From a virus: DNA of 64,000 nt. Positions within the stretch are counted from its first letter, which is position 1. Each line of letters opens with the position of its first letter. The notes beneath the pieces are model-generated. The model was given only the letters and a program-made list of their open reading frames with translations, was not told where the DNA came from and searched no databases. The stretch is taken from IMG/VR virus record IMGVR_UViG_3300021373_001770, positions 1-64,000 of that record, one strand, 5' to 3'. A program made the position numbers and the translations under genes. Below are positions 25,797 to 53,473 of the stretch, in pieces.

Positions 25797-27416
25797 ATGG
25801 CAACTCCAGTTTTAAATAATGGGATTTTCCTAAGAGATACAAGCTATAAAGCTAGTTCTCATGTTGATTCGTATCACCTTACCCAAATGCTTGGTAATCC
25901 TGAGCCTATGGATATGGGACCAATTGATCTTTGGGCTATGACCCAAAAGGTAGAAATGCCTTTGTATCAAATGGCTTCTTTTGGTGGTAAGAATACTATC
26001 ATGGTGGACAATGCTAGAGGTGAGTATAAATGGCAAACTCCTATTGCACAAGACCTTCCTTACATTGTAGCTGACATTGAACCTGCTAACGCTAGCAAAG
26101 GTATTGATGGAACTACTTTTAAGATTAAGGTTAACAAGAGATCATTTGGTCATGGTGATATTATCACATATGACAAGTATAATGGTCTTGAATTATACAT
26201 TACTGCGGATGATATTATCCCTGCAGGTGATGGTTTTGTTTATACAGTACAGTTGGTAAACAACAATAATAGTGCTGTATTAGACAACAAGTATCTTGCA
26301 AAAGGAACTAAATTCTTTAGAAAAGGTTCTGCAAGAGGTGAGTATGGTGAAAGATTTTCTGACATTGAAACAGGATCTGGATTCCGTGAATTCTACAACT
26401 TTGTAGGAGGAGCTGAAGCACACGTACACTATTCTATTTCTAGCCGTGCTGATCTTATGATCAAAGGTGGTTTGAATGCTGATGGTACTGTACCAGTAAC
26501 TGAGATTTGGAGAAACTTTGACACTGACCCAAATAATCCATCTGTACCTAGTATTGAAGGATTAGTAGCATCTATGGGTAAAGCTGGTGCAAGAGAAGCA
26601 TTTGAAAATGGAACTCTTACACGTACTTTCATTACAAATATGGAAGCAGCACATTTATCTAAAATTGCTACAGATATTGAAACTTACCTCATGTGGGGGA
26701 AAGGTGGTAGAATTAAGCAAGACGGTCCAGATGATATTAGATTATCTGTTGGTTTATGGTCTCAGTTGGATAACTCATTTAAAAGAGTATACAACAAGTC
26801 ATCATTTACACTTGACATGTTTAAATCTGAGCTTTACAACTTCTACCAAGGAAAAGTTGAATTTAAAGGACCAGACCCACAAAGATCACTTGTTGTACAA
26901 ACAGGTATTGGTGGTATGCAATTAATCAACAAGGCAATTGCTGATGAAGTGTATGGTTCTGGTTTAGTTCAAAATGCTACTGATGTTGGAGCTGTAACAG
27001 GTAAAGGCATGGATTTAGATTATGGTTTTGCTTACACAAGCTTTACTATTCCTTTCTTAGCTAACGTTAAGTTTGTATTGAATCCGGCATTTGATAACTT
27101 AAATACTAATGACATTGAGAATCCATTAATTGATGGAAGACCTCTAAGTTCATTTAGTTTTATCATCTTTGATGTAACTGATGAAGGTAATGACAACATT
27201 CACTTGTTGAAGCTTTCTTGGGATAATCAACTTAAGTGGTTCTACCAAAATGGTACTATGGACTACATGGGAAGAACTCAAGGATTTGCATCTACTGGAC
27301 AGTTCAATGGATATAGAGTTTATATGACTCAAACCATGCCAGCTATATGGGTTAAAGATCCGACTAAAGTTCTAAAAATTGTAATGAGAAACCCTGTAAC
27401 AGGAGGATCATTCTAA
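25797..27416 (+). CDS. Major capsid protein
   Basis: 539 aa, HK97-like fold expected. It starts MATPVLNNGIFLRDTSYKAS. The sequence is rich in small and aromatic residues and has relatively regular codons, fitting a very highly expressed gene. The motif MTQKVEMPLYQMASFGGKNT (about 48-67) and the long beta-rich centre resemble capsid proteins of crAss-like phages. The gene is flanked by the scaffold gene upstream and a strong terminator (27428-27465) downstream, so MCP transcripts end here. No delta-domain cleavage site is evident by eye. Confidence 0.88.
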   Translation: MATPVLNNGIFLRDTSYKASSHVDSYHLTQMLGNPEPMDMGPIDLWAMTQKVEMPLYQMASFGGKNTIMVDNARGEYKWQTPIAQDLPYIVADIEPANASKGIDGTTFKIKVNKRSFGHGDIITYDKYNGLELYITADDIIPAGDGFVYTVQLVNNNNSAVLDNKYLAKGTKFFRKGSARGEYGERFSDIETGSGFREFYNFVGGAEAHVHYSISSRADLMIKGGLNADGTVPVTEIWRNFDTDPNNPSVPSIEGLVASMGKAGAREAFENGTLTRTFITNMEAAHLSKIATDIETYLMWGKGGRIKQDGPDDIRLSVGLWSQLDNSFKRVYNKSSFTLDMFKSELYNFYQGKVEFKGPDPQRSLVVQTGIGGMQLINKAIADEVYGSGLVQNATDVGAVTGKGMDLDYGFAYTSFTIPFLANVKFVLNPAFDNLNTNDIENPLIDGRPLSSFSFIIFDVTDEGNDNIHLLKLSWDNQLKWFYQNGTMDYMGRTQGFASTGQFNGYRVYMTQTMPAIWVKDPTKVLKIVMRNPVTGGSF

Positions 27417-40754: not shown

Positions 40755-42965
40755 ATGATCCCAACAAATTCAAGTATAACCACAAACGGTTGTGATAATA
40801 TATCATCCAATTGTGTAATTTGGCAAGGGCCAGATATTGCATGTATAGATTTATGTACTGGTGATACTATAAGCATAGTTACAAAAAAAATTGCAGATAA
40901 GGTTTGTCAAATTATAACTGATGGTGTAACTGCTAATCCGGACTTAACAGGATTAGATTTAAGTTGTCTTAATATTCAAGGTGTAACACCAACAGAATTG
41001 GTTCCTGTTCTTCAGGCAATGGTTACTCAAATATGTGCTAACACAAATAGTAGTGGAGGCGGAGGTATGAGTCCTTTACCAACTATGACATTACCTGCTT
41101 GTTTAGTGTATGATGATCCAAGTGGAAACCCAGTAACACAATTACCACTAGATCAATTTGCTACATTAATTGCAAATCAGGTATGTACTAATTTAGCAAG
41201 TATTACTACTATAAATGCTACTTTAACAAGTTACAATACTAGAATTACAACTTTAGAAAATTGTGTTTTACCTTGTGGTGGTTCAGTGGCAGAAGTTCAA
41301 ATAGTACCTACTTGTGTAAGTAATGTAGGTCAATTAACTAATGTATCGGTAGTAGTATTAGCACTTGAAAGTGCGTTTTGTGCATTACAAACGGCTGTTG
41401 GTTTACCTGGAGCTATATCTTCTGCAATATCTCAAACAGTAATTACAGGATCTTATAATACACTAACAGATAATAGTGTTTCCTATGGAAGTATTGTTGG
41501 TTGGAATAATAGTCCAAGTACATTGGCAGAAAGCGTTCAAAATGCATGGGTTGTAATTGATGATTTATATAGTGCAGTAGCAGCTATACAAACAAATTGT
41601 TGTCCTAGTGGATGTGACGGTGTTGTTTTTGCATACTCTACATCTACTCAAATTAATACATCAGGTGTAATAACAGGTATTAATTTTGATTTTACAGGAT
41701 CTACTATACCTGCTTCATTTAATGATACATCAGGTTATTCTATTATTACTTTAACAGATGCAAATGGAGCTTCAACAAATACAGTATTTAGTGTAGCAAG
41801 TTTACAAAATAATCCAACAGGATTATTAGTGTCAACTGGAACTTTAAATACTTTTCAAAATATTCAAGTTGCTATAAGTTTCTCAGTTACTGATGGTAGT
41901 GATACATGTGAAGCAGCTCAAAATTCTGTGGTTAATGGCGTAATACCTTGTCCAACTATGTTATCATCAGCAATTACTACAACAGAAGCAACAATATCAT
42001 TTGGTAATTTATTAGGTACTAGTGCTGTATATACATTAGACTTGTTAGATGTTAGCAATAATGTGGTTGCTACACAAGTATTTAATAATCCAGGTGTATC
42101 ATTAACACATACATTTACAGGATTAACTCCAGGCAGTAATTATACAGCTAGGCTTACTATAGGTATTGGTGGAGCAACTGAGGTGTGTGCTAATACAATT
42201 AATTTTACAACAGTTAATGGTGCAGCACCATGTACAGATGGTATGGATGTAGCATTTGTTATTGATTACACTGCCTCTATGGGTACTGAAATAAATTCAA
42301 TTAAAACTGGATTTGCTTCATTAGTAAACACTATTCAAACAAGCTCAGGAGCTAATAATTATAGAATAGGTGTTACTACTGCTGATGAATATACAGATCC
42401 TACTACTCAACCTACTTATAGTGCATGTGCTGATTATCAAGCATTACCAGCTTCACAAAGAATTATAAATACAGGAATAGGACATACACAAGTTATTACA
42501 GCTTGGGAAATGTTCTCAGATAATAATGGTGCAAGTGCTACAACACAAGTTAATTTACTTAATGATGGTGTGGGTGATGGTACAGGATGTATTCAATTAG
42601 GTAATGGTGGTGGTGCTCCTGAACCAACAGATATGGCCATAAATCAAATATTAAATAATAATTTCTTAGGCGCTTGGAGACCAAACGTTGCTAAGTATAT
42701 TATTGTTATAACAGATGAATTGTCAGGTGGTCCAGACGATAGCTTTACTGCAGTAGATTATGCACAAATACAAACGTTTATTAATCAAGCATTAGCACAA
42801 GGAGTTACAATATTTGTTCTAGGTGAAGGGGTTGATAAAACATTTAATAATGGTGGTACTTTAGTATACCCATGGAGAGAGTTAGCAGATCAAACAGGAG
42901 GTAGTTGGAATATAAATGAAGATCCATCTACAATAAATGCAGAAATAGTAGCTGGTTGTTCATAA
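40755..42965 (+). CDS. Cys-rich virion protein with FN3-like and VWA domains
   Basis: 736 aa. The N-terminal 90 residues have paired Cys (NGCDNISSNC, DIACIDLCTG). About 95-290 are alpha/beta with more Cys, and about 390-480 form an FN3-like beta sandwich (EATISFGNLLGTSAVYTLDL, then FTGLTPGSNYTARLTIG). Residues about 498-734 are a von Willebrand A domain: AFVIDYTASMGTEI has D504-x-T506-x-S508 in place of DxSxS, and VITDELSGGPDD carries the later MIDAS Asp. VWA domains bind proteins through a divalent metal. In a phage virion this suggests adhesion to host surface or to another tail part. Confidence 0.8.
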   Translation: MIPTNSSITTNGCDNISSNCVIWQGPDIACIDLCTGDTISIVTKKIADKVCQIITDGVTANPDLTGLDLSCLNIQGVTPTELVPVLQAMVTQICANTNSSGGGGMSPLPTMTLPACLVYDDPSGNPVTQLPLDQFATLIANQVCTNLASITTINATLTSYNTRITTLENCVLPCGGSVAEVQIVPTCVSNVGQLTNVSVVVLALESAFCALQTAVGLPGAISSAISQTVITGSYNTLTDNSVSYGSIVGWNNSPSTLAESVQNAWVVIDDLYSAVAAIQTNCCPSGCDGVVFAYSTSTQINTSGVITGINFDFTGSTIPASFNDTSGYSIITLTDANGASTNTVFSVASLQNNPTGLLVSTGTLNTFQNIQVAISFSVTDGSDTCEAAQNSVVNGVIPCPTMLSSAITTTEATISFGNLLGTSAVYTLDLLDVSNNVVATQVFNNPGVSLTHTFTGLTPGSNYTARLTIGIGGATEVCANTINFTTVNGAAPCTDGMDVAFVIDYTASMGTEINSIKTGFASLVNTIQTSSGANNYRIGVTTADEYTDPTTQPTYSACADYQALPASQRIINTGIGHTQVITAWEMFSDNNGASATTQVNLLNDGVGDGTGCIQLGNGGGAPEPTDMAINQILNNNFLGAWRPNVAKYIIVITDELSGGPDDSFTAVDYAQIQTFINQALAQGVTIFVLGEGVDKTFNNGGTLVYPWRELADQTGGSWNINEDPSTINAEIVAGCS

Positions 42966-47158: not shown

Positions 47159-50100
47159 ATGGCAAAAAAAAGATCATCTTCTTCAAATAACAGGCAGAGG
47201 CAATCTAGAACAAGTTCATCTGTGCAAACAAATTCATTCACTAAAGGAATGAACAAAGACATTGCACCTTCTTTGGAAAATAACCAAAGTTGGTGGCATG
47301 CACGTAATGCTGCAAATAATTCAGAAGATGGTGATGTGGGTGTTATTGGTAATGAGCCAGCTAATTTAGCTTGTGGTGTTATACCATATACAATCATTGG
47401 TGCTGTTCATAGATATGGGGATGAGTGGATAGTATATTCTACAGATGATATTAATTCTGAAATAGGACGTTTTGATGACAGTGAATGTAAATATGAAACA
47501 CTTGTTAATGATCCTTGTTTAAACTTTAATAGAAAATATTTAATTACAGGTGCAGCAAAAGAAAATTTTGATTGTACATGGCAAGTCTATTGGGATGATG
47601 GTAATAATCCATCAAGAACATTAAATATTGATGACATACCTTGGAAAAAAGTTCAAGTCACAGGTCCAGATATAGATGGTAGTGATTGTGTTACTTATGA
47701 AATTATTGAGCCAAAAAGATTAGACTGTGAACAAATAAGATTAGCCCCTTTAGTTGATACACCTTGTATTGTTTTAAGCAATTCAACTGACTCAGGTATG
47801 ATACGCAATGGTGCTTATCAAGTGTTTGTTGCATATGTAGAAAATGAAGTAAGAGTAACTGATTATATTGGTATTTCAAATATTCAGACTATATGGAGTC
47901 ATGAAGGAAGTAATGGTTCTTTAAATATAAGTTTATCTAATTTAGATAAAGATTATGAATATTATGAAGTAGTACTGCTTAGAAGAAACCAAGGTCAAAC
48001 TTCTGCTAAAAGAATTGGTTTTTATAGTGTCCAGCAAAGTGATATAAATATAGATTATATAGATGAATCATTACCAGCAGTATCTTTAGAAACAATTCCT
48101 TTGCGTAGTCCAGCTTATGAAAAGTCTGAGTCAATGTTTGTTGTAAATGATTGGCTTATAAGACAAGGCCCAACAGAACAATTTGATTTTAATTATCAAC
48201 CAGATGCAAACAACATTCAAGTAGAATGGGTTGCTAATGCAGAAAATACTAACTTTTACTATAAAGGCGGTAATAAATATAATTTTTTAAGAGATGAGCA
48301 ATATGCTTTCTTTATAAGATGGATATATAATACAGGAGAAAGATCTTCTTCATATCATATACCTGGTAGAGCACCAGAATCTTATACTACTCCTAGCGGT
48401 TCAGTATATCAAGAAGATGAGATAATTTATGGAGATAATGTTTTGGATACTGTAAGTGGAGATAAACTATTTAAAGTATATAATACAGCTTCAGTTACTT
48501 CATTAGTTACTGAAGAGTTAGATGATGGTACTGTTGTTTATGCAAGAGGAAAAATGGGATACTGGGAATCTACAGAAAGATATCCTATGAAGCCTGATAT
48601 TTGGGGTGACTTATGTGGTAAGCCCATAAGACATCACAAAATGCCATCAGAAGAAACATCTAATGCATTAGCATTAACAAACACAACTGGTGATTTAATA
48701 AATATATTGGGTGTTCAATTTTCTAATATTGCAAGACCCAAATACAATGATGGTACATTTATACCAAATGTAGTAGGATATGAGATACTAAGAGGTTCTA
48801 GATTAGGTGCAAAATCTATACTTGCAAAAGGATTATTTAGAAACATGCGTAAGTATACTGTTCCTAATCCGGAAGATTTAATTGGAAATAATGTTCAAGG
48901 CTTATATGTAAATTATCCTTATAATGACCTTAGACCAGATATTTATTTTCACACAGGTGGATCAGGTAGTTTAAAAAGAACAGATGGTTGTGATTCATTT
49001 GATAGTTCTATGACATCTTATCAAGCATTAGGTGATGAACCTGATATAGGCGGTGAGCCTGCAGGTTATTCAAGAAAAGTTTTTAGTTTTTCTTCTCCTG
49101 ATTTAATGTTTACAAAACCATTTTTAAATGCTTACGAAACTCGGATATATGGACAGCTAAGTGGTAATGCAACTGGTAGATTTAAACAATCAGAAGATCA
49201 TCCTCAGTTTAAGTTATTAAGAGGTGGTGCTGCATTAGTGGCATCTATTATAGGTTTTGGATATGCAATTCATCAGATTAGAGGTACGGAAGGTAGAAGA
49301 ATGAATTCTACTGGAGGTAATATGACAAGTATCTCAGGTAAAGGAGAAGAAATAGTAGGTACAGAGCAAAGGGGTAACAATGGATTTGTTACGTTAACTG
49401 TACCACCTGGTGTTGCTACGGTAAACTGGAGTCCAAGAAGTGGAGGAAAAATTTCTGGTGGTGATTGGGAAATACAAGATCCTAATAAGCTAACTACATA
49501 TAAAGCAGCTGCTACTGCAGCAGTTGGTGCTTCTTCAGGCTCATCATTAGCATTATCTTTATTAATGGAAAGTTTAGCTGGTATAGGAGATTTATATACT
49601 GGTGGATTAGTTACTGAGATTCAAGAAGGTGCTCAAATCACACAAAATGCTAGTCATGCAAATGTGTTGGGTGTCAATTCAGGAATACAAACAAACACAA
49701 GAACAAAAGATACAAGTACATCTAATATTCCACAAATATTTAGAACAATTACTGGTTTATTAAGTACTCAAACAAATCTTGCTATAGGAGGTAATGAAAT
49801 CATTGAACTTCTATATAATTTAGCAGATGAATCTTCTTTTGCATACAAGTACAATTCAGAAGGTTTTTTCTTTGATTTCTCAAATCAAACAAATGGTTTA
49901 TGGAGAATAAAAAATACTGATTCAAATTATATTGGTCAATCATTTCAAACATTTAATCAAGGTGAATATAAAATAAATAATTTATATAGACCTAGTACAG
50001 TTGCTGTAGCTTTAGATAAAGAATTAACTGATCCAGCTACAGTTGATACATCTAGATTTTCTATAGGTGGTGAACTGAATTTAACTTTAAATGCCGCAGG

Positions 50101-53100
50101 AGAATATGTAAGTTCTACTCCAATAGAGTTTAGTGATAGTTATTTGCTAGAACCTACTACTGAAAGAGGATCAACAATATCAGCATATTATGGTGCATTA
50201 AAATTTAATTTTGATAATCAATATGGTCAATTATCTGGTATCAAACAAGTTCAAATGCGTGGTTGTGTTGAGCTGCTTGATCCTAATAAACCAGATGAAT
50301 ATTTATACAGCAGTAAACCTATTTTTGCAGGAGATACATTTGTAGGTAGGTATACTGAAAAAGTTATAATGCCAATATTTAGTAATTATTTATTAGGCCA
50401 ACCTGATAATTATACTTTTGATTATTCTTTATATGTAAACATACCTTACCCAAGATGGTGGTTGAATTCTCAAAGATATGATATTACACCATTAGCAAGA
50501 GAAATAGCTACTTTAGGTCTGGTTAGTACTGGCTCTTTAGAAGCTCTTTATCCAAATGATTTATTTTATTTGGATAGAGGTAATGATTCTTGTGCTTCAG
50601 GTTTTAATGCATTATTTAATGAAGATGATCCTAATCCAACGTTTGAAATGCTATATGCATATATGTATACACATATTAATGGTATGTTAGATTTTTATGT
50701 GGAGTCTGAAATTAATTTAGATCAAAGAGATTGGGAAGATGAACCAGCAAAAAGAATATACAGTGTTTATGATTATAATGATACTGATGAATTATTCCAT
50801 GCAGCTATAGAAAAAGAAGACAACTTTTATAAATATGATGAATCATTAAGTGTTGGAAAGTTTCCTACACAAATGGCATCTTTTGCTGAAGTACAGCGTT
50901 TAGATTATGATCCTTACATTGCTGAGACTTGTTATGTAAATTATCCTAAAAGGTTAATATATTCTTTACAGGCACAAGAAGAATCAAGAAAAGATTATTG
51001 GAGAGTATTTTTAAATAACAACTATAGAGATTTTAAAAATGATGTTAGTGTTATAAAACCAATTAATAAAAGCGGTGCATTAATATTCTTTCCACATTTG
51101 TCACCTCAAATGTTTCAGGGACTTGATACATTGAAGACTCAGCTTGATACTAAATTAACAATAGGTGATGGCGGTTTGTTTAGTCAACCCTTCCAAAATG
51201 TTGCAAATGCAGATATATCTAATGAGTATGGTTCATGTGAAAGTTTAAGAGGTGTTATTAATACACCTGTTGGTTTATTTTTTATATCACAAGCACAAGG
51301 TAAGATATTTCAATATGCTGGTAAAGGTCTTCAGCCAATATCAAATCAAGGTATGAAATGGTGGTTTGCAAAATATTTACCATCTAAATTTATAAAACAA
51401 TTTCCAAATTCAGAGACATCAGTATGGACAGATAATCCAGTTCAAGGTGTGGGTTGTCAAGTTATATATGATTCAGTAGATGATGTAGTTTATTTTATGA
51501 AAAAAGATTATAAACTTAAATCTCAATATATTGCAACAGCAGAATTTGTTGACACTGATTATAAGCCGGTTATTGTAGAAACTGTACCTGGTGTAAAAGT
51601 TAATGTAGACATAGGTGATCCAATTTATTTTGATGATTGTTCATGGACTATTAGTTATGATCCTAAAGTCAAAGCTTGGATTTCATTTCATGATTGGCAC
51701 CCTGAATTAGCATTACCAAGTATAAATCATTTCTTTACTACAAAAACAACAACTACTACTATACCTCAATGTCCTCCAGGATATTCTTATAATCCTTCAA
51801 ATGGTTTGTGTGAAATAGCAATTAATCAAACTGTAGATGCAACTATTACTGTTGATGAAATAACTGAAAATATTGTATCAGGTGGACCAGTTAATTGTTT
51901 GGTAGATGTTGTAATTGCAATGGACACTTCTGGTAGTACAAATAATAATAATAGAAGACAAGCACAACTTGCCCTTGTTGCTGCTTTCTTAGCGGATCCT
52001 CAAATAGTAACTTTGATGAATAATGCACAGATGCAGATTGGATTTACAGAATGGGATACTGCATCTACAGCTTTTGATATTCCTAATCCTGCAGGTGGTA
52101 CTTGGTCTATGAGTAATACAGTTACTAATGCAACGGTACAAAACTGGTATAACTCAATATGGGGTGGTGGTGGCACAAGTGAAATTGTAGGTTTGAATGG
52201 TGCACAAGCATTAATAAATAATAAGGCTGGTTCTCAACTAGGAGATAGAAGTGCTCAACCAAATTTTAGAAATGTTATTTTATTTATAACAGATACAACA
52301 GGTAATCCTGGTGCACAAACTGGACAACCTTTTCAAAGTAGCACTGTAGGTACTGGTACTGGACCAGCTAACCAATTTTTGTATGGTATATATTGTGGTG
52401 CTACAAGTGCAGTTCCACCAAGTACAGCAACATTAAATTCAATAACACAAACTACTGGACCAGTTAACGTTGATCCATATCAATTTGGTATAAATGCTGC
52501 TAACCCAGCAACTTTTCAACCTGTTGCAAATGCTATTGCTGGTGCAGTTTGTGGAACAGATTATGAGTGTGAATGTCCTACAGGCTATACATTAGTTTAT
52601 CCAGACCCTGTTACTTCATCATATAGTTCTGCTACTGGTACTTGTACAGATGTTCCTGGAGAAGCTCCAATATGTAGAAGAGTTACTTGTGAGTGTCCAC
52701 CTGTTGTTGTACCTGGAACAGTAGTTACCGAATTGGGAACTTGTCCAGATAGTGCTCCTGGAATATATGATATTGGTGATCCTAATTGGGTTGACCCAGA
52801 TCCAAGACGTTGTAATTTTTATTTTTATGAAAGTACAACAGCTAATTTTGAAGTAGGATCATTTTGGAGACATAATGTAAGATGTGATTTATTTGCAAAT
52901 TACTATAATGAAGATTACCCATGGGAAATAGATTTAATATCTAATACCGGTCAGGCGGTAAACACAGTCCGTAGTTTTGAATATCAATTAGAAACTTATG
53001 TTTATAAAGGAGATCCTCAATATAATATGTGTGGTGGAGATAAATGGGAAGATTTAGATTTTAATTTTGATAGAGCAATTGTATATAACAATGATCAGAC

Positions 53101-53473
53101 TTCTGGATTATTAAATATTAATCAGCAATCTGTAAATGATCCTTGGGGTAACCTAACATATCCAATAATAAATTTTAATAGTATAGATATTTTAGCATCT
53201 AAAGTTGAACACAAATTTAGATTTAATCAATTTTGGGATATAACAAATGATAGAGGAGAATTTACAAATGTTGAGCAGTCTATATTTGATACGGAATGTA
53301 ATGGATATATAAGACCTTTGAATAGTATAAATTTAAATTATAATAAACCTCCAACACAAAGAAAGAAGTTTAGACATTATTCAAATCAAGTTATATTAAG
53401 AAGACAGCTTTCAGGAAATAGAAAAATGTTATTAAGATTAAATAATACTAAGTTATTACTATCACAAAGATAA
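47159..53473 (+). CDS. Muzzle (tail nozzle) protein with inserted VWA and EGF-like segments
   Basis: 2104 aa. The first about 1525 residues are the conserved muzzle, with TNSFTKGMNKDIAPSLENNQ and WWHARNAANNSEDGDVGVIG near the start, TISYDPKVKAWISFHDWHPE near 1497-1516, and the tail end resuming at FWRHNVRCDLFANYYNEDYP (about 1900). About 375 residues are inserted between these: a Thr run (TKTTTTT), a CPPGYSYNPSNGLCE EGF-like piece, a VWA domain (about 1578-1795, MIDAS D1589-x-S1591-x-S1593) and Cys pairs (CECPTGY, CRRVTCECPP). The muzzle plugs the tail channel. The insert would sit on an exposed loop and could act as an adhesin. Confidence 0.88.
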   Translation: MAKKRSSSSNNRQRQSRTSSSVQTNSFTKGMNKDIAPSLENNQSWWHARNAANNSEDGDVGVIGNEPANLACGVIPYTIIGAVHRYGDEWIVYSTDDINSEIGRFDDSECKYETLVNDPCLNFNRKYLITGAAKENFDCTWQVYWDDGNNPSRTLNIDDIPWKKVQVTGPDIDGSDCVTYEIIEPKRLDCEQIRLAPLVDTPCIVLSNSTDSGMIRNGAYQVFVAYVENEVRVTDYIGISNIQTIWSHEGSNGSLNISLSNLDKDYEYYEVVLLRRNQGQTSAKRIGFYSVQQSDINIDYIDESLPAVSLETIPLRSPAYEKSESMFVVNDWLIRQGPTEQFDFNYQPDANNIQVEWVANAENTNFYYKGGNKYNFLRDEQYAFFIRWIYNTGERSSSYHIPGRAPESYTTPSGSVYQEDEIIYGDNVLDTVSGDKLFKVYNTASVTSLVTEELDDGTVVYARGKMGYWESTERYPMKPDIWGDLCGKPIRHHKMPSEETSNALALTNTTGDLINILGVQFSNIARPKYNDGTFIPNVVGYEILRGSRLGAKSILAKGLFRNMRKYTVPNPEDLIGNNVQGLYVNYPYNDLRPDIYFHTGGSGSLKRTDGCDSFDSSMTSYQALGDEPDIGGEPAGYSRKVFSFSSPDLMFTKPFLNAYETRIYGQLSGNATGRFKQSEDHPQFKLLRGGAALVASIIGFGYAIHQIRGTEGRRMNSTGGNMTSISGKGEEIVGTEQRGNNGFVTLTVPPGVATVNWSPRSGGKISGGDWEIQDPNKLTTYKAAATAAVGASSGSSLALSLLMESLAGIGDLYTGGLVTEIQEGAQITQNASHANVLGVNSGIQTNTRTKDTSTSNIPQIFRTITGLLSTQTNLAIGGNEIIELLYNLADESSFAYKYNSEGFFFDFSNQTNGLWRIKNTDSNYIGQSFQTFNQGEYKINNLYRPSTVAVALDKELTDPATVDTSRFSIGGELNLTLNAAGEYVSSTPIEFSDSYLLEPTTERGSTISAYYGALKFNFDNQYGQLSGIKQVQMRGCVELLDPNKPDEYLYSSKPIFAGDTFVGRYTEKVIMPIFSNYLLGQPDNYTFDYSLYVNIPYPRWWLNSQRYDITPLAREIATLGLVSTGSLEALYPNDLFYLDRGNDSCASGFNALFNEDDPNPTFEMLYAYMYTHINGMLDFYVESEINLDQRDWEDEPAKRIYSVYDYNDTDELFHAAIEKEDNFYKYDESLSVGKFPTQMASFAEVQRLDYDPYIAETCYVNYPKRLIYSLQAQEESRKDYWRVFLNNNYRDFKNDVSVIKPINKSGALIFFPHLSPQMFQGLDTLKTQLDTKLTIGDGGLFSQPFQNVANADISNEYGSCESLRGVINTPVGLFFISQAQGKIFQYAGKGLQPISNQGMKWWFAKYLPSKFIKQFPNSETSVWTDNPVQGVGCQVIYDSVDDVVYFMKKDYKLKSQYIATAEFVDTDYKPVIVETVPGVKVNVDIGDPIYFDDCSWTISYDPKVKAWISFHDWHPELALPSINHFFTTKTTTTTIPQCPPGYSYNPSNGLCEIAINQTVDATITVDEITENIVSGGPVNCLVDVVIAMDTSGSTNNNNRRQAQLALVAAFLADPQIVTLMNNAQMQIGFTEWDTASTAFDIPNPAGGTWSMSNTVTNATVQNWYNSIWGGGGTSEIVGLNGAQALINNKAGSQLGDRSAQPNFRNVILFITDTTGNPGAQTGQPFQSSTVGTGTGPANQFLYGIYCGATSAVPPSTATLNSITQTTGPVNVDPYQFGINAANPATFQPVANAIAGAVCGTDYECECPTGYTLVYPDPVTSSYSSATGTCTDVPGEAPICRRVTCECPPVVVPGTVVTELGTCPDSAPGIYDIGDPNWVDPDPRRCNFYFYESTTANFEVGSFWRHNVRCDLFANYYNEDYPWEIDLISNTGQAVNTVRSFEYQLETYVYKGDPQYNMCGGDKWEDLDFNFDRAIVYNNDQTSGLLNINQQSVNDPWGNLTYPIINFNSIDILASKVEHKFRFNQFWDITNDRGEFTNVEQSIFDTECNGYIRPLNSINLNYNKPPTQRKKFRHYSNQVILRRQLSGNRKMLLRLNNTKLLLSQR
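51730..52740 (+). other. Inserted VWA/EGF-like module inside the muzzle gene
   Basis: Sub-gene region encoding the inserted adhesin-like module. The borders are the Thr-rich linker after NHFFTTK and the resumption of conserved muzzle sequence after the second Cys-rich segment. The reading frame is unbroken through it. Confidence 0.7.

Follow-up and report, generated by a model that had tools for sequence, protein, structure and literature searches.

Introduction

The muzzle of the crAss-like phage phicrAss001, gp44, is described as a conserved gate that likely makes contact with the cell surface. In this muzzle, the IG2 domain with its crass fold occupies residues 318-1021, other parts reach further distally than the propeller, and variation in muzzle length has been placed in the crass domain and the IG2 regions (Bayfield et al. 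2023, PMC10172136, in the portion of the text available). CrAss-like phages of the Epsilon and Zeta groups carry C-type lectin tail proteins that are diversified by retroelements, according to the accessible parts of two further reports (PMC11054128, PMC12386605). Mfa5 and other pilus-tip adhesins have a long insertion after beta4, and loops form a lid over their MIDAS (PMC7835359, available portion).

Here, we analyse a window of 64,000 nucleotides, which is part of a virus record of 71,496 bases, and the VWA domain predicted in its muzzle gene. A VWA in a muzzle was not reported in the open-access literature searched (PMC10172136, PMC10136315, PMC10892097, PMC8651126 and others, each as far as its accessible text goes), a body of work that has preprints and most subscription papers outside it.

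Results

An extra segment in a crAss-like muzzle

The muzzle gene was read in a preliminary description of this DNA as an unbroken frame, and 2104 codons are indeed open between 47159 and 53473 on the + strand. The crAss-like identity proposed there is borne out by a match to Pfam PF25731 crAss_MUZ (93.7 bits, E 1.1e-26), which lies above the curated cut-off of 27, and by a match to a PHROG virion structural protein (E 1.9e-36). The same genome encodes a crassvirus capsid protein at window positions 25797-27413 (Crass_capsid, PF23898, E 2e-30). Conserved sequence was said to be interrupted by a Thr-rich linker, a Cys-rich piece, a VWA domain and further Cys pairs; all of these were located in the muzzle, the linker at aa 1527 and the Cys beyond the VWA across aa 1798-1885. 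Upstream, the conserved sequence DPKVKAWISFHDWHPE begins at aa 1501 (51659) and conservation ends at HFFTTK (aa 1529), while downstream it resumes, as had been noted, with FWRHNVRCDLF at aa 1902 (52862). The segment itself, placed earlier at 51730-52740, is real, but that end falls about 115 bp short, and the extra part corresponds to 51746-52855. The features are as follows:

47159..53473, + strand: crAss-like muzzle protein gene, 2104 aa (PF25731 crAss_MUZ, PHROG virion structural protein)
51659..51745, + strand: conserved stretch ahead of the slot, DPKVKAWISFHDWHPELALPSINHFFTTK, aa 1501-1529 (sequence alignment)
51746..52855, + strand: slot, the segment missing in empty-site relatives, aa 1530-1899, about 370 residues (relatives)
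51737..51763, + strand: Thr-rich linker, aa 1527-1535, in a long strand of the model (sequence, AlphaFold model)
51770..51811, + strand: first Cys piece, CPPGYSYNPSNGLC, aa 1538-1551 (sequence, alignment)
51896..51898, + strand: Cys 1580 at the N-terminal end of the VWA, putative disulfide partner of Cys 1798
51899..52546, + strand: predicted VWA domain, aa 1581-1796 (AlphaFold model, Foldseek, VIA-align)
51923..51937, + strand: MIDAS motif DTSGS, aa 1589-1593 (Asp1589, Ser1591, Ser1593), invariant in 33 aligned rows
52175..52177, + strand: MIDAS Thr1673 (conservation by hmmalign)
52292..52294, + strand: MIDAS Asp1712 (conservation by hmmalign)
52550..52744, + strand: post-VWA Cys-rich piece with Cys 1798, 1804, 1806, 1829, 1839, 1844, 1846 and 1862 (sequence, alignment)
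52745..52855, + strand: outgoing linker, aa 1863-1899, a long strand in the model (AlphaFold model)
52862..52894, + strand: post-slot conserved FWRHNVRCDLF, aa 1902-1912 (sequence comparison)

Both Cys of the first Cys piece are invariant in the 33 aligned rows. The label EGF-like, previously attached to the Cys-rich piece, is not established: Pfam EGF scores 15.6 bits (cut-off 21.5) and cEGF 13.6 bits (cut-off 26.6); in the relative L037, cEGF reaches 22.3 bits against the cut-off of 26.6. No family for the cassette was found in PHROGs. crAss_MUZ is absent from the Pfam results for two relatives, L026 and L036, perhaps through a filter effect, although identity with the window protein is 57% and 64%, respectively, in their best segments. 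A second divergent, gap-rich stretch lies at aa 701-900 of the window muzzle, and 18 of 65 aligned residues are identical to L027 over aa 701-800.

The segment is predicted to contain a VWA domain

Residues 1490-1925 (436 residues, aligned with 32 relatives) were modelled by AlphaFold with a mean pLDDT of 81 and a pTM of 0.56, and the VWA part reached a pLDDT of about 90. Structure prediction had been proposed as a check for a Rossmann-type VWA fold, and this fold was recovered, with integrin I domains and Mfa5 matching at Z values of about 17-18.6. By VIA-align, the 50 matches listed range from Z 16.9 to 18.6, matches at most 1 Z apart counting as ties; they include CMG2 (8ft6; Z 18.6, rmsd 2.3, 169 residues), Mfa5 (6tnj; Z 17.8, rmsd 2.8, 180 residues) and integrin alpha-M (1mf7; Z 17.8, rmsd 2.7, 182 residues). 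A Foldseek search with the VWA model returned the pilus proteins SpaC (E 2.4e-7) and RrgA (E 6.1e-6). Among viral models, the 50 matches listed are mostly VWFA proteins from other phages and giant viruses, none of them named as a muzzle protein.

Pfam VWA_2 (PF13519) scores 17.4 bits with the segment and 14.1 bits with the whole protein, under its cut-off of 27, and the VWA assignment therefore rests on fold and motif. The intact DxSxS metal site of the preliminary description is found as DTSGS within the modelled fold. Judged by the model, the inserted segment holds a genuine VWA fold, not a chance motif.

Position of the segment relative to phicrAss001 gp44

A profile of 23 family muzzles was compared by hhalign with a profile of 11 gp44-type muzzles; in three of these (L217-L219), translation with table 11 runs into 19-22 in-frame stops. 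The two profiles align with a probability of 99.9 and an E of 4.3e-34 over gp44 967-1334; the alignment to gp44 as a single sequence is weak. In the profile alignment, the slot maps to the KDGK turn at gp44 1234-1237, and the turn at this site comprises 4-10 residues in 11 of 11 gp44-type muzzles. Because IG2 with the crass fold ends at gp44 1021, the slot lies beyond the crass fold, and the domain order given in the available portion of PMC10172136 places it in the propeller part. The segment had been described as sitting at the tip of the tail tube; the site is instead a turn in the C-terminal propeller, and the crass fold that forms the tip does not include it.

The gut crAss-like muzzle genes L217, L218 and L219 have in-frame stops as expected of stop-codon reassignment. 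The muzzles of phi17:2 (L049) and Fpv1 (L050) carry other insertions just before the slot, at about aa 1453-1497 in window numbering, and no Pfam family was found in the stretches of these insertions that were scanned.

Alternative contents of the slot

Relatives were collected as 206 loci, with contigs recurring between searches; 197 loci span the site and yield 101 distinct muzzle ORFs and 95 distinct slots. Left out of the slot count are L023, L046, L049, L050, L116, L181, L196, L203 and L205, of which L046, L049 and L050 show a short turn at the site in other alignments. In the first search, 43 of 44 relatives span the site (the sequence of L023 is truncated) and 37 of these 43 have a VWA there. 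A VWA at this place, an arrangement presented earlier as unusual, is thus the usual state within the clade.

Of the 95 distinct slots, 68 hold a VWA (65 assigned by script and L067, L094 and L099 by hand), 10 are empty, seven are PA14-like, four contain Cys linkers only, and three have other contents. Two further slots (L063, L086) hold a VWA without DxSxS, and one (L120) a PA14-like domain together with such a VWA. A short loop at this point in most relatives had been named as support for an insertion; the empty slots, of 2-10 aa, show such a loop in outer relatives. The three other contents (L066, L091 and L100) measure 553, 553 and 590 aa, and no recognised family was found in them, the Pfam scan covering L066 and L100.

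The seven PA14-like slots (L037, L051, L052, L054, L065, L087 and L088) have a common domain of about 225-253 residues. Four of the seven match Pfam PA14 at E up to 1, the best at E 0.027, all short of the cut-off, and L120 scores 17.3 bits against a cut-off of 24. The model of a C-terminal muzzle with the PA14-like cassette is poor (mean pLDDT 55.6); a Foldseek search with it gave PA14, Flo/Epa adhesins and CBMs at E of about 1e-3 to 8e-3, beneath glycosidase matches. A search of PDB chains with the PA14-like profile returned no relative. We call the domain of these seven slots PA14-like only.

A near-slot backbone tree (95 rows, 483 columns, quick method) was given L047 and L048 as its root. 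The empty rows group together with support 100 and a long-branch warning among them, the PA14-like rows are a single clade with support 98, and with this root all filled rows fall into one clade. Slot types require 11 changes on the tree vs 26.3 in shuffles; slot types thus track the tree, and switches between domain types are rare. The four linker-only rows account for four changes, three of them forced by well-supported branches. Several losses of the VWA from between its Cys linkers seem to have occurred. L019 and L074, both lacking the VWA, retain the post-VWA Cys-rich piece, apparently minus Cys 1798, and the slot of L019 recurs in a second contig, L028. On this distribution, the propeller turn is best read as an exchangeable slot, not as the site of one single insertion.

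As to the two root sequences, the muzzle homologue of Leptolyngbya phage Lbo-JY46, which has a cyanobacterial host, is annotated as a hypothetical protein (L047 8518-13482), and viral contigs scanned with this muzzle gave no relative. In csAssE-Sib, a gene annotated as Ro sixty-related protein lies downstream of the muzzle gene (L048 11422-13056).

Exchange of VWA cores between related phages

VWA cores were compared with the near-slot backbone, that is, about aa 1250-1529 plus aa 1900 to the end. Across 67 cores, backbone and core identity are loosely related (Spearman 0.46), and for 19 of the 67 cores, some other row is closer by more than 12 points than the row with the most similar backbone. 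The near-slot backbones of L005 and L160 are 98.8% identical and their cores 41.5%; the corresponding values are 99.2% and 59.8% for L056 and L083, and 95.5% and 32.1% for L004 and L044. Muzzle DNA outside the slot is 97.6% identical in L005/L160, 95.2% in L056/L083 and 74.3% in L004/L044, and only the first two pairs are therefore close throughout. Along the DNA of L005 and L160, the 9178 bp that precede the core as far as the linker are 97.6% identical; identity is then 12-75% in the core and 93-100% thereafter. The converse is seen for L083 and L078, whose core DNA is 85-100% identical despite a backbone of 74%. In the VWA tree, the four groups tested, which were picked for looking discordant, were all rejected (p-AU 0.005, 2e-5, 3e-88 and 2e-8). 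These comparisons indicate that VWA cores recombine between phages.

Conserved and variable parts of the cassette

The window protein has a complete MIDAS set (Asp1589, Ser1591, Ser1593, Thr1673 and Asp1712). Among the relatives of the first search, DxSxS occurs in 37 of 37 VWA-holding slots and in 37 of 38 slots of at least 370 residues, the exception, L037, carrying a different domain. In the full set, 71 distinct slots have a VWA-like domain and 68 of them show the motif, DxSxS having been part of the definition of the VWA class of 68 slots. When these 68 slots are aligned by hmmalign, the Thr column contains Thr in 66, Ser in one and Ala in one, and the distal Asp is found in all 68. MAFFT alignment of 67 cores gives entropies of 0, 0, 0, 1.11 (Thr) and 0.15 for the five MIDAS columns, and the high value at the Thr column is taken as misalignment of a variable loop. 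The MIDAS is kept though the cores drop to about 30% identity between phages with 87% near-slot backbone identity, and the site presumably holds a divalent metal.

Cys 1580 and Cys 1798 are both present in 66 of the 68 VWA slots and both absent in the other two, with no slot retaining a single one. This paired presence and absence suggests a Cys 1580-Cys 1798 disulfide that is part of the VWA itself. In von Willebrand factor A3, too, Cys are located at both ends of the domain.

Substitution rates were compared in 18 close pairs, which were chosen by hand, have rows recurring among them, and include one pair containing an exchange (L005/L160). In every one of the 18 pairs, omega of the VWA region, taken here to include some of the Cys-rich piece, exceeds that of the backbone (0.68 vs 0.135 for the window and L014), and low dS contributes to omega in some of them. 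The VWA region has the higher dN in 15 of 18 pairs, the lower dN in L021/L040 and L197/L198, and an equal dN in L022/L030. With VWA-region omega at 0.21-0.89, and thus below 1 throughout, positive selection is not demonstrated.

Hardly any length variation is seen in the VWA strands. Loop lengths range over 9-67 residues for beta1-alpha1, 19-76 for beta4-alpha5, 8-35 for alpha2-alpha3 and 15-50 for beta2-beta3, and the far-side loop alpha6-beta6 is variable too (6-26 residues, 15 distinct lengths). Entropy differs modestly between the MIDAS side (2.21) and the far side (1.85), loops having been assigned to either side by the general VWA topology rather than from the model itself. On this assignment, length variation falls mostly in the loops around the MIDAS.

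Searches for the origin of the cassette

PDB chains searched by sequence with the muzzle, the family profile and the cassette profile gave no useful relative; the best match (E 0.056), of the Cys-rich part to a complement receptor, was taken as composition. The cassette had no tblastn match at E 0.01 in 50,697 phage records. No bacterial VWA donor was found in one short-pattern scan of genome contigs, a kind of scan that distant relatives can escape. Its single relative is itself the muzzle of a crAss-like phage, encoded by a contig that had been assigned to a Pseudomonadales MAG (L128, WLWP01000004.1, 114,697 bp). Because L128 encodes a crAss-like muzzle with a VWA cassette, it is probably a phage contig.

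No sign of retroelement diversification was found: the 71,496-base record, which may be a fragment, has no RVT_1 match to a reverse transcriptase, and the only family of direct repeats inside the segment (3 x 21 nt, two copies 71% and 76% identical to the third) was taken as chance or as similar Cys pieces.

The window encodes a second VWA protein at 40755-42965 (+ strand; 736 aa, PF00092 at E 1.8e-7, weak fn3, D-x-T-x-S), which is located upstream of the muzzle gene and after a tail-fibre-like gene. Sequence similar to this protein was detected by tblastn in 170 of 206 loci, in some of them partially. Derivation of the muzzle VWA from it was rejected, the muzzle VWA profile having no match to this protein at E up to 10.

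Discussion

We consider it probable that the muzzle segment is a cassette of the ejection gate that binds a receptor with the help of a metal and can be exchanged between phages, since an adhesion-type fold, a kept MIDAS, variable loops and exchange between close phages all fit this reading. The preliminary description had inferred metal-dependent binding of a host surface protein or glycan before DNA release; of this proposal, the part in adhesion or receptor binding now gains population evidence from cassette exchange, higher dN/dS and length variation that is mostly in MIDAS loops. In the C-terminal propeller of the muzzle, the turn of a beta-hairpin would serve as the slot for exchangeable adhesion domains and, in the window phage, would carry a VWA on a Cys-rich, Thr-rich stalk. 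Should the muzzle be hexameric like that of phicrAss001, the ejection gate would display six VWA domains. A protein or glycan of the host surface may be bound by each of them, with a divalent metal at the MIDAS and the variable loops making the contact; this would anchor the end of the tail on the cell and might also assist gate opening. Specificity could then change when the VWA core is recombined, when the core drops out and leaves only the Cys linkers, or when the slot holds a PA14-like or other domain instead. Domain exchange among close relatives suggests a role in the choice of the bacterium that is bound. To our knowledge, host choice by crAss-like phages is still largely an open matter.

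A tentative extension of this reading, which we hold to be rather unlikely as a whole, treats the cassette, whether a VWA or another adhesion domain in the slot, as an exchangeable receptor sensor: by analogy with integrin I domains, ligand and metal at the MIDAS might shift the last helix, pull on the stalk and the propeller blade, and so help to open the gate. That VWA binding opens the gate is speculation. If it were true, environmental crAss-like phages would set their host range by exchange of sensors, instead of or besides tail fibres.

Four other explanations deserve consideration. The VWA might bind a surface without a MIDAS metal; binding would then fall to the loops or to the Cys-rich stalk, and the MIDAS would be kept for folding. 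MIDAS-loop lengths that vary far more than the strands would suit such binding, as would the two slots with a VWA-like domain devoid of DxSxS and the third behind a PA14-like domain. Retention of DxSxS in 68 of 71 slots and of the distal Asp in 68 of 68, despite high divergence elsewhere in the cores, argues against it, and we judge it improbable.

Somewhat less probable again is a structural role in subunit contact, stability or gate capping, with no binding function. The segment is lacking in 10 of the 95 distinct slots and in all 11 gp44-type muzzles, which counts against such a role, and the four changes on the tree for the linker-only slots (three of them forced), a dN/dS above that of the backbone and the exchange of cores speak against it as well, even though the segment sits in the muzzle and is Cys-rich, and disulfides stabilise the tail barrel and fibre hubs of crAss001 (in the available portion of the published account).

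We give slightly less credence still to loose attachment to extracellular polymer or particles in place of specific receptor recognition. VWA, PA14-like and other domains do occupy the same slot, as could be expected of general adhesion modules; exchange between close phages and length variation on the MIDAS side suggest specificity. Finally, it is very improbable that the exchanged or missing cassettes are assembly artefacts, for although nearly all loci are metagenome contigs in which similar Cys pieces could misassemble, the L160 and L083 cores are 76% and 91.9% identical to their nearest relatives, respectively, so that neither is a copy, slot and both flanks lie in a single open frame, and the L019 slot is present again in L028.

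The receptor-binding cassette that we favour lends itself to experiments, since the domain is compact and can be produced for host-binding assays, and L005/L160 and L056/L083 constitute natural matched pairs for host-range comparison.

With respect to known systems, phicrAss001 gp44 and the window muzzle have the C-terminal propeller part in common, and gp44 has a 4-residue turn where the window muzzle has its VWA slot. In phicrAss001, variation in length is assigned to the crass domain and to IG2 (PMC10172136), whereas here it affects a turn of the propeller. The C-type lectin tail proteins resemble the cassette as fast-changing receptor-binding modules of crAss-like phages; however, as far as the available portions of PMC11054128 and PMC12386605 go, they are tail fibre or receptor-binding proteins of C-type lectin fold associated with a reverse transcriptase, while the present case involves the muzzle, a VWA fold and exchange of cores. 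Mfa5, RrgA and SpaC, the pilus-tip adhesins, likewise have a VWA fold with a MIDAS, yet they are bacterial pilus proteins with 13-16% identity among the matches listed, and the domain reported here is found in a propeller turn of a phage muzzle. The long insertion after beta4 of Mfa5 (PMC7835359, available portion) may be compared with the loop after beta4 of the muzzle VWA, which has 19-76 residues. Integrin I domains, CMG2 and von Willebrand factor A3 agree in fold and MIDAS, but their identity is 10-17% among the matches listed, and a common fold is no proof of common function. VWA adhesion, as used by integrins and bacterial pilus tips, is now linked to the gate of a phage tail.
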